Below, piece by piece: positions 62,148 to 63,977 of a stretch of DNA of 64,000 nt. This DNA comes from Acidobacteriota bacterium. Its GTDB lineage: Bacteria > Acidobacteriota > Holophagae > Holophagales > Holophagaceae. Every line of letters starts with the position of its first letter. The first letter of the stretch is position 1. Both the position numbers and the translations under genes were made by a program. Location: the NCBI GenBank assembly GCA_016192145.1, contig JACPUT010000018.1:248001-312000 (forward strand). Reading direction: 5' to 3'. Below the pieces are notes generated by a model. It searched no databases. It saw only the letters and a list, made by a program, of their open reading frames with translations, and was not told where the DNA came from.

Positions 62148-62951
62148 ATGCGGCATTCCTTCTACCTGCGCCTGGCTTACGATGGGACGAATTACCATGG
62201 CTGGCAGATCCAGACGTCACTGCCCACCGTCCAGGGGGAGCTGTGGCGGGCGTTGAGGGTCCTGGATGCGGAGGCTCCCATGCCCCAGGGCACGGGCCGC
62301 ACGGATTCCGGTGTCCACGCCGAGGCTCAGGGCACCGTGGCGAAGGTGGAACGGGAGTGGGACCCCTATCGCCTACTCGCAGCCCTCAACGCCCACCTAC
62401 CACCCGCCATCCGGGTGATGGAGGCCGTGCCGGTGCCCGAGGCCTTCTACCCCCGCCGCCACGCCGTGGCCAAGCGCTACCGGTATCGCCTGGGGATGGG
62501 CCCCACCGCGCACCCGCTGGAGCGCGCTATCCGGTGGCAGCTCTTCCGGAAGGAGCCCCTGGATCAGGAAGCCATGGCCGCCGCCGCCGCAGCGTGGATC
62601 GGAACCCACGACTACAGCGCCTTCCGCCATCAGGAGTGCGAAGCCGAGGACCCCGTGCGGACCATCCACGCCATCCGCCTCGAACCGCACCGCCTGGGCC
62701 TGGACCTGGTCTTCGAAGGCAGCGCCTTCCTCATGCACCAGGTGCGGATCATGAGCGGCAGCCTCGTGCAGGTGGGCAAGGGGAAGATCCTCGTGGCCGA
62801 TGCGCCCCGCATCCTGGCGAACCGGGATCGCACCCAAGCCGGTGAGACGGCCCCCGCCCACGGCCTCTGCATGGAAAAGGTCTGGTACGAGGCCCGCTGG
62901 GGCCTCAACGAGCCGAGCCCCTGGGGGGAGGGAAAGTTGGATCGCGAATAA
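62148..62951 (+). CDS. truA: tRNA pseudouridine(38-40) synthase TruA
   Basis: A 267-aa enzyme. YLRLAYDGTNYHGWQIQTSL, PQGTGRTDSGVHAEAQGTVA (catalytic Asp in GRTDSGVHA), YPRRHAVAKRYRYRL, HDYSAFRHQECEAEDPVRTI and FLMHQVRIMSGSLVQVGKGK cover the family motifs. The ATG at 62148 gives a normal start. The final residues (KLDRE) and the stop codon lie inside a long inverted repeat that begins at 62940, so the repeat has set the C-terminus. Confidence 0.95.
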   Translation: MRHSFYLRLAYDGTNYHGWQIQTSLPTVQGELWRALRVLDAEAPMPQGTGRTDSGVHAEAQGTVAKVEREWDPYRLLAALNAHLPPAIRVMEAVPVPEAFYPRRHAVAKRYRYRLGMGPTAHPLERAIRWQLFRKEPLDQEAMAAAAAAWIGTHDYSAFRHQECEAEDPVRTIHAIRLEPHRLGLDLVFEGSAFLMHQVRIMSGSLVQVGKGKILVADAPRILANRDRTQAGETAPAHGLCMEKVWYEARWGLNEPSPWGEGKLDRE

Positions 62952-63031
62952 CGCGAATGGGGCGAATAAGCGCGAATAAATAGGAGTGTTCCCTATTCGC
63001 GTCATTCGCCCCATTCGCGTTATTCGCGATC
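62940..63031. repeat. 92-bp hairpin with 28-bp perfect arms made of a GCGAATAA word
   Basis: 62940-62967 and 63004-63031 are exact reverse complements (28 bp). The stem continues inward with a one-base bulge to a loop AGTGTT. The left half contains four tandem copies of GCGAATAA or GCGAATGG variants at eight- to ten-base spacing. It lies between convergent truA and recR and includes the truA stop codon. Confidence 0.92.
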
Positions 63032-63036
63032 TGCTT

Positions 63037-63633
63037 TTAGACCGGCCGCCGGCCTTCCAGCGCTCGCCCGAGGGTGAGCTGGTCGGCGTATTCGATGTCG
63101 CTGCCGATGGGGAGGCCCAGGCCGATGCGGGTGGCTTTGATGCCCAGGGGTTCGAGCAGGCGGGCCAGCCAGCTGGCGGTGGCTTCGCCATCGAGGGTGG
63201 GATTGGTGGCGAGGATGACTTCGGTGATGCTGTGGTCTTCCAAGCGGTGGAGCAGTTCCCGGATCCGAAGCTGGTCTGGGCCCAGGCCCCGGAGCGGGGA
63301 AATGAGACCGCCCAGCACGTGGTACCGGCCCTTGAAGGAACTGGCCCGCTCGAAGCTGAGCACGTTGCTGGCTTCGGCCACCACCACGAGGACATGGGGA
63401 TCCCGGTTTGGGTCCTTGCAGATGGGGCAGAGGGGTTGGTCGGTGAAGGCCCCGCACTGACTGCAGAAACCCACCTTGTCCGCGGCGTCCTGGAGGAGGC
63501 GGGCCAGGTTGGCCATGGCCTCCGGCCCCTCCTTGAGGAGGTGCAGGGCCATGCGCTGGGCGCTCTTCTGGCCCACGCCCGGAAGGTGCTGGAGGCTCGC
63601 GACCACCGCCTCCAGGGGGGCGGGCAGCTTCAT
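63037..63633 (-). CDS. recR: recombination protein RecR
   Basis: A 198-aa protein of the RecFOR pathway. N-terminal HhH LQHLPGVGQKSAQRMALHLL, zinc finger CSQCGAFTDQPLCPICKD, Toprim LVVVAEASNVLSFERASSF and the Walker-B-like C-terminus (LGLPIGSDIEYADQLTLGRA). It normally follows ybaB directly. Here a 340-bp inverted-repeat element lies between them, and its left arm ends 5 bp upstream of the recR ATG. No usual SD is visible. Confidence 0.96.
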   Translation of the reverse strand: MKLPAPLEAVVASLQHLPGVGQKSAQRMALHLLKEGPEAMANLARLLQDAADKVGFCSQCGAFTDQPLCPICKDPNRDPHVLVVVAEASNVLSFERASSFKGRYHVLGGLISPLRGLGPDQLRIRELLHRLEDHSITEVILATNPTLDGEATASWLARLLEPLGIKATRIGLGLPIGSDIEYADQLTLGRALEGRRPV

Positions 63634-63637
63634 AGTG

Positions 63638-63977
63638 AAGGGCCTGTAAATGAGTCATCTTGCCTATTGCGAGGGGCGTCGGCGGAGCAATCCAAGGCGG
63701 CCGACCGTAGGTGTATCGGGAATACACGGAGGGAGGTCAACGCAGGTTTGCGACAGCCGCCGACCCTGGCCCGGTTCCCCGGTCCGCTCGGCTGTTCGGC
63801 CGAGCGGAAGAAGGCCCCGGTGGGGCCTTCGATACCGAGAGGGGTTGGCCCCTCTTCGCGCCCCCAGCTGTGTCGGGCCGCTTGCACGATGTCACCGCAT
63901 CGCGCTGCGCGGCTCTCCTTGCTGGATGGCGCGAATAGGGGCCAACAATAGGCAAGCTGACTCATTTACAGGCCCTT
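63638..63977. mobile_element. 340-bp MITE-like element or structured RNA with 32-bp terminal inverted repeats
   Basis: The ends 63638-63669 and 63946-63977 are inverted repeats with 31 of 32 matches. Inside are hairpins at 63711-63727 (6 bp), 63783-63808 (10 bp, loop TGTTCG), 63810-63830 (9 bp, loop GGT) and 63838-63855 (7 bp, loop TTGG). The right arm carries the last three codons and stop of ybaB. This accounts for the only stretch over 300 bp without a recognised gene. A 111-aa minus-strand frame (63630-63965) runs through it without family similarity. No transposase is present. Confidence 0.7.

Follow-up and report, generated by a model that had tools for sequence, protein, structure and literature searches.

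A probable IS5-superfamily-type MITE with paired hairpin arms, inserted between ybaB and recR and widespread in the Holophagaceae

Introduction

The genes ybaB and recR are held apart, in the 64,000-nucleotide stretch of DNA analyzed here (the window, part of contig C18 of the 3.8 Mb genome G000), by a 340 bp element with long terminal inverted repeats (TIRs) and a row of internal hairpins. A first-pass annotation, made from the letters alone, had offered either a non-autonomous mobile element (MITE) or a structured RNA acting on recR, and the locus raises the question of which of the two it holds and what keeps its hairpins paired. A MITE is usually defined through its ends, its interior being free to drift, and usually originates by internal deletion, while the target classes of the IS5 superfamily comprise TA (IS427-like) and TNA (IS1031-like). 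Our conclusion is that the element is very probably a non-autonomous MITE of IS5-superfamily type, from a family that has spread through the Holophagaceae. The class is known; what appears to be new is the combination of a conserved structured core, borrowed variable ends, landing on stop codons and nested hairpins, which we did not find together in the open-licence papers searched.

Results

The window copy (cp1) occupies positions 63638–63977 (no strand assigned). Its outer helix is formed by the left TIR (63638–63669, plus strand, AAGGGCCTGTAAATGAGTCATCTTGCCTATTG) and the right TIR (63946–63977, minus strand), 32 bp each and matching at 31 positions with a single T/G mismatch, and both the sequence and a BLAST of one against the other (97%) bear out the element as first annotated. 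Between the TIRs lie a left hairpin arm (63669–63769, plus strand; arm-model match G000:C18:311669-311769) with the conserved loop motifs CAAGG and (A/G)ACGC, an extra hairpin module of 66 bp (63773–63838, no strand assigned) and a right hairpin arm (63844–63947, minus strand; arm-model match G000:C18:311844-311947), which is the inverted homologue of the left one. The size of 340 bp holds for this copy and not for the family, since the 66 bp module is additional to a family length of about 270 bp. The whole element folds at −231 kcal/mol, compared with −166 ± 7 kcal/mol for 100 dinucleotide-shuffled versions, none of which folds as well (z −9.7). The start codon of recR (198 aa, 63037–63633, minus strand) adjoins the left TIR as described, at a distance of 4 bp. 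On the other side the stop codon of ybaB indeed falls inside the right TIR (TAA, 63966–63968, minus strand): the final codons AAG GGC CTG TAA are all within the element, which contributes the last three residues and the stop of a protein ending ...NLPGL-KGL*.

In the relatives examined (Holophagaceae, Geothrix), ybaB ends in NLPGLGL* or a similar sequence and is free of the element, with recR usually following within a few bp; the nearest named RecR proteins are those of Geothrix and Holophagaceae (80–83% identity). With the joined flanks as query, 67 genomes gave matches; in most of these the junction is uninterrupted or almost so, and in none was this element seen at that position, other insertions of about 60–155 bp being present in some genomes, where those inspected are unrelated palindromes or spacers. 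One copy inserted at the ybaB stop codon and has come to provide the gene's end. The triplets that flank it, TGA and TTA, each conform to TNA but differ from one another. Four other genomes (L388 in G010, L389 in G021, L390 in G035 and L391 in G020) carry a different palindromic repeat (TTCACCACGGAGACACGGAG...) between ybaB and recR, so that this junction appears to be a repeated landing site. A second long palindrome, unrelated (GATCGCGAATAACGCGAATGGGGCGAATAA...), lies at 62937–63033 of the window, in the gap that separates truA from the 3′ end of recR.

The element is multicopy in its own genome, where BLAST returns 15 copies, the single-arm model 17 arm pairs and two single arms (one of them belonging to cp2, the left arm of which carries an insert), and the combined estimate is about 18 full copies and one lone arm. 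Copies without extra modules measure 266–272 bp and share one layout: an outer helix, some 30 bp long and beginning GGGCCTG or a variant thereof, encloses a left and a right arm, each about 100 nt, with a tiny hairpin (GCCC-GAA-GGGT) between them. The left arm is homologous to the reverse complement of the right arm, with CAAGG, an apical GG and (A/G)ACGC in common, and the internal-loop bases AGG and ACG are almost invariant in 44 arms. Because of this homology the core covariance model R1, built from 13 own-genome copies, fits most copies on both strands. Among the arms listed in five genomes, 136 of 150 form inverted pairs, separated by 7–9 nt in 61 of 68 cases; several of the 14 unpaired arms belong to copies that hold nested modules or lie where a contig ends. 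That the arms are carried by an autonomous transposon was considered and rejected, nearly all arms in these genomes being close inverted pairs. The element itself is short and TIR-bounded and contains no transposase gene.

Smaller hairpins are nested within some copies. A 42 bp module occurs at two positions in four genomes (G025, G030, G034 and G035), other G025 copies hold modules of 78, 55 and 35 bp, and copies in G055 and G058 carry relatives of the window copy's 66 bp module at the corresponding central position. The 42 and 78 bp modules are inserted at CA^AGG of the arm loops (L367–L376, L200, L195, L336) and may themselves be mobile. At 1876 bp and with MITE ends, L370 (L370:361-2236, G025:C16) was considered as an autonomous element and rejected, as it is a copy whose left-arm region holds a nested IS110-family element with its transposase gene (DEDD_Tnp_IS110).

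Matches to R1 were found in 59 of 77 Holophagaceae genomes and in one of 16 other genomes of the class (match counts in this survey are capped and are not copy numbers, as both strands of one copy may count), and plasmid and phage collections gave no match; the family is shared by many Holophagaceae and hardly occurs outside them. Six copies in G025 are 97–99.5% alike and each sits at a different locus, which indicates recent spread in that genome. At the 3′ end of atpE the site is filled in G025, by one of these six copies, and contiguous in those other Geothrix-group genomes whose match spans it (best relative G027, 92% identity). Only a handful of sites among about 150 copies are common to different genomes, most insertions being species-specific; the pattern that would refute mobility, all relatives having the element at the orthologous site and nowhere else, is not the one observed. 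Flanking TNA triplets are identical on both sides with a variable middle base, TCA in L178 and L208, TGA in L131 and L217 and TTA in L129, L219, L189, L177, L205 and L206, the duplication being clear in at least eight copies, while a pooled test for target duplications gave only a modest signal because the subfamilies use different offsets. For the GGGTCTG and GGAGCGTG subfamilies the flanking sequence is TA, often within CTAG, and this TA may be a duplication or part of the TIR. Multicopy, site-polymorphic, TIR-bounded and flanked by TA or TNA duplications, the element is mobile DNA.

Roughly half of the insertions coincide exactly with a stop codon. The edge triplet is the in-frame stop codon of a gene (taken as an open frame 100 or more codons long and high in GC3) at 44 of 93 copies, always at an offset of −2 to −4, and 46 of the 136 sides with an edge stop triplet are gene stops (34%), whereas for stop triplets at other flank positions the share is 5.6%. 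In what we take, from reading the sequence, to be a khpA-like gene, the same stop codon carries two subfamilies in opposite orientation (G009 and G037). Target preference together with selection against gene breakage can explain this enrichment. The triplet duplicated at a stop codon restores the stop and so preserves the upstream gene, making such landings a low-cost means of spread through compact operons. One copy (L183, G010:C3) is inserted in an apparent terminator hairpin (GGGGGGCGCCGGG ... CCCGGTGCCCCCC).

The TIRs are of several types (GGAGCTGGAACGGAATAA and GGGCCTGTATGG among them), and five of these types recur at the ends of IS5-type insertion sequences that related genomes carry with the same TA or TNA duplications: L244 in G029 (1537 bp, GGAGCCTGTCCAAGTAA, TA), L250 in G035 (GGGTGTGTTTTCAAAGTC, TA), L230 in G064 (1203 bp, GAGGGTGTAGCCGAATAAT, TCA/TAA), L231 in G027 (869 bp, GAGTGCCTAACAA, TTA) and L234 in G065 (GAAGTGGTAACAAAACC). 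The open reading frames of L250 encode DUF4096 and DDE_Tnp_1, an IS4/5-type transposase according to Pfam, and two PF01609 loci, L248 and L238, have single matching ends. Transposases of this IS5-family type (DUF4096 plus DDE_Tnp_1) would mobilize the element in trans. Among the PF01609 loci, no insertion sequence had TIRs exactly like those of the own-genome copies; G000 has two PF01609 matches, and its scanned locus, L229, is without matching ends. DDE_Tnp_1 as the sole mover was rejected, PF01609 being absent from the copy-rich genomes G025, G009, G006 and G012, as was a Y1_Tnp/RAYT (HUH) mover, since Y1_Tnp occurs in 13 of 77 genomes and is missing from most carriers, many copy-rich ones among them. 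The arms were found in none of 30 insertion sequence loci, except for a nearby MITE copy in L251, so the element is not a simple internal-deletion derivative of its partners. Within a copy, the outer 12 bp of the two TIRs agree fully in 60 of 93 cases and with no more than one mismatch in 80, and L177 and L173 have cores 98% identical with TIRs only 42% identical between the copies, yet matched within each. Recombination between copies would be the simplest account of such an exchange of ends; an origin of TIRs from target DNA found no support at L173, the copy examined for it. Two related larger repeats (L119 in G031, L124 in G038) have ends of the GGAGCCTGTCCAAGTATTCGA type and share the inner modules but have other arms, suggesting further element types.

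The hairpins of the first-pass annotation are real: among the 13 own-genome copies, 43 of 60 core consensus pairs show compensatory two-sided changes, and intermediates are few. In a set of 27 representatives, 95.4% of the kept pairs are Watson–Crick, 1.5% G-T (G-U if read as RNA) and 1.2% A-C, compared with 6.3% G-U and no A-C in 39 tRNAs from the examined loci, a zero that arises partly by construction, as ARAGORN shows standard pairs only. An RNA made from one strand would tolerate G-U and not A-C; the two being equally rare, the pair statistics argue for a constraint on folded DNA over one on a single-stranded transcript, and their symmetry is also compatible with palindrome conversion or with RNA from each of the two strands. 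Average conservation does not differ between paired and unpaired columns, although unpaired loop positions are among the most conserved of all. Two orthologous insertions show one mirrored, one G-U and five broken changes (the pair L166/L213 alone accounting for one mirrored and four broken), a small sample suggesting that pairing may go unguarded after landing. No family of Rfam 15 reached its gathering score (best by E-value CC0196, 23.6 bits against 35), the element contains no promoter or intrinsic terminator match, and a kink-turn reading of the AAGGA/GAC loop, judged by eye, was rejected as not canonical.

Discussion

Multiple copies, sites filled in some genomes and empty in others, duplicated targets and IS5-type TIRs support the mobile half of the initial proposal, and what is left to weigh is why the pairing persists. 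Pairing persists from lineage to lineage without recourse to G-U and apparently decays after insertion; on these grounds the inverted arms may work during mobility as folded DNA, either single-stranded or cruciform. It is somewhat unlikely, we think, that mutation does the work instead, template switching or conversion between palindrome halves mirroring each change in the opposite strand of the stem. The two-sided changes with few intermediates would fit such a process, as would TIRs matched within copies and different between them, although recombination between copies could also produce the latter. Unrestricted conversion would erase asymmetric loops, and these persist in dozens of copies (GGGTG/TCGATA in the outer helix, AAGG/GACGC in the arms); conversion alone sits poorly with the conserved unpaired loops, and the changes in L166/L213 are mostly broken rather than mirrored. 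An extension of the folded-DNA reading, in which the two-arm core is an independent hitchhiker recognized in mobility as a folded single-stranded module, swapping its ends so as to be carried by several different IS5-type transposases and receiving the 42 and 78 bp modules in its CA^AGG loops, strikes us as improbable as it stands.

The RNA half of the initial proposal, a structured RNA, noncoding or cis-regulatory, that would serve the host (in the ybaB–recR gap, for instance), we consider very unlikely. The very strong fold, the compensatory changes and the near-invariant loop bases are what such an RNA would show, and many copies lie directly 3′ of genes, where they would be transcribed; G-U pairs are nonetheless scarce against the tRNA control and no commoner than A-C pairs, the model fits both strands, insertion sites vary among species, and the promoter, terminator and Rfam searches were negative. 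The case carries a warning that strong covariation by itself does not prove a functional RNA.

As an IS5-superfamily-type MITE, the element resembles its class in being short, free of coding need, multicopy and polymorphic, with insertion sequence-like TIRs and the same target duplications. It departs from the class in that the core is conserved while the TIRs vary and match several different insertion sequences, and further in its arms, which those insertion sequences lack, its concentration at stop codons and its nested hairpin modules. The conserved, structurally constrained part is thus the interior, across a bacterial family, with ends that change to fit different insertion sequences, and selection of hairpin structure for transposition becomes testable.

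Other palindromic repeats provide partial parallels. RUP, which shares its TIR with IS630-Spn1, Correia/NEMIS and ERIC have TIRs, terminal TA and long stem-loops (PMC2229807), but are about 100–200 bp long and mostly a single long stem, whereas here two inverted homologous arms are mounted on an outer helix in about 270 bp of G+C-rich sequence. The CIR elements of Caulobacter and Brucella also consist of two linker-joined hairpin arms, but expose a GANTC motif, a relation not seen here, and are described as only partly MITE-like (PMC2229807). REP/BIME palindromes, tagged GTAG or CGTC, share the inverted hairpin pairs 3′ of genes and differ in their length of 20–40 bp, their unpaired tetranucleotide tag and, for the GTAG class, their tie to Y1 transposases (PMC3733652), genes mostly absent here. 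That the family is a host-adapted palindrome of this kind, serving mRNA stability or supercoiling control at gene 3′ ends, is scarcely probable: its position at stop codons and its two inverted units recall BIMEs, but its insertions are mostly species-specific, most carriers lack Y1 (HUH) transposases and it has TIRs and a TNA duplication. Integron attC sites, on whose folded single strand a tyrosine integrase recombines, may offer a resemblance only, as structure-conserved hairpins with conserved unpaired bases.
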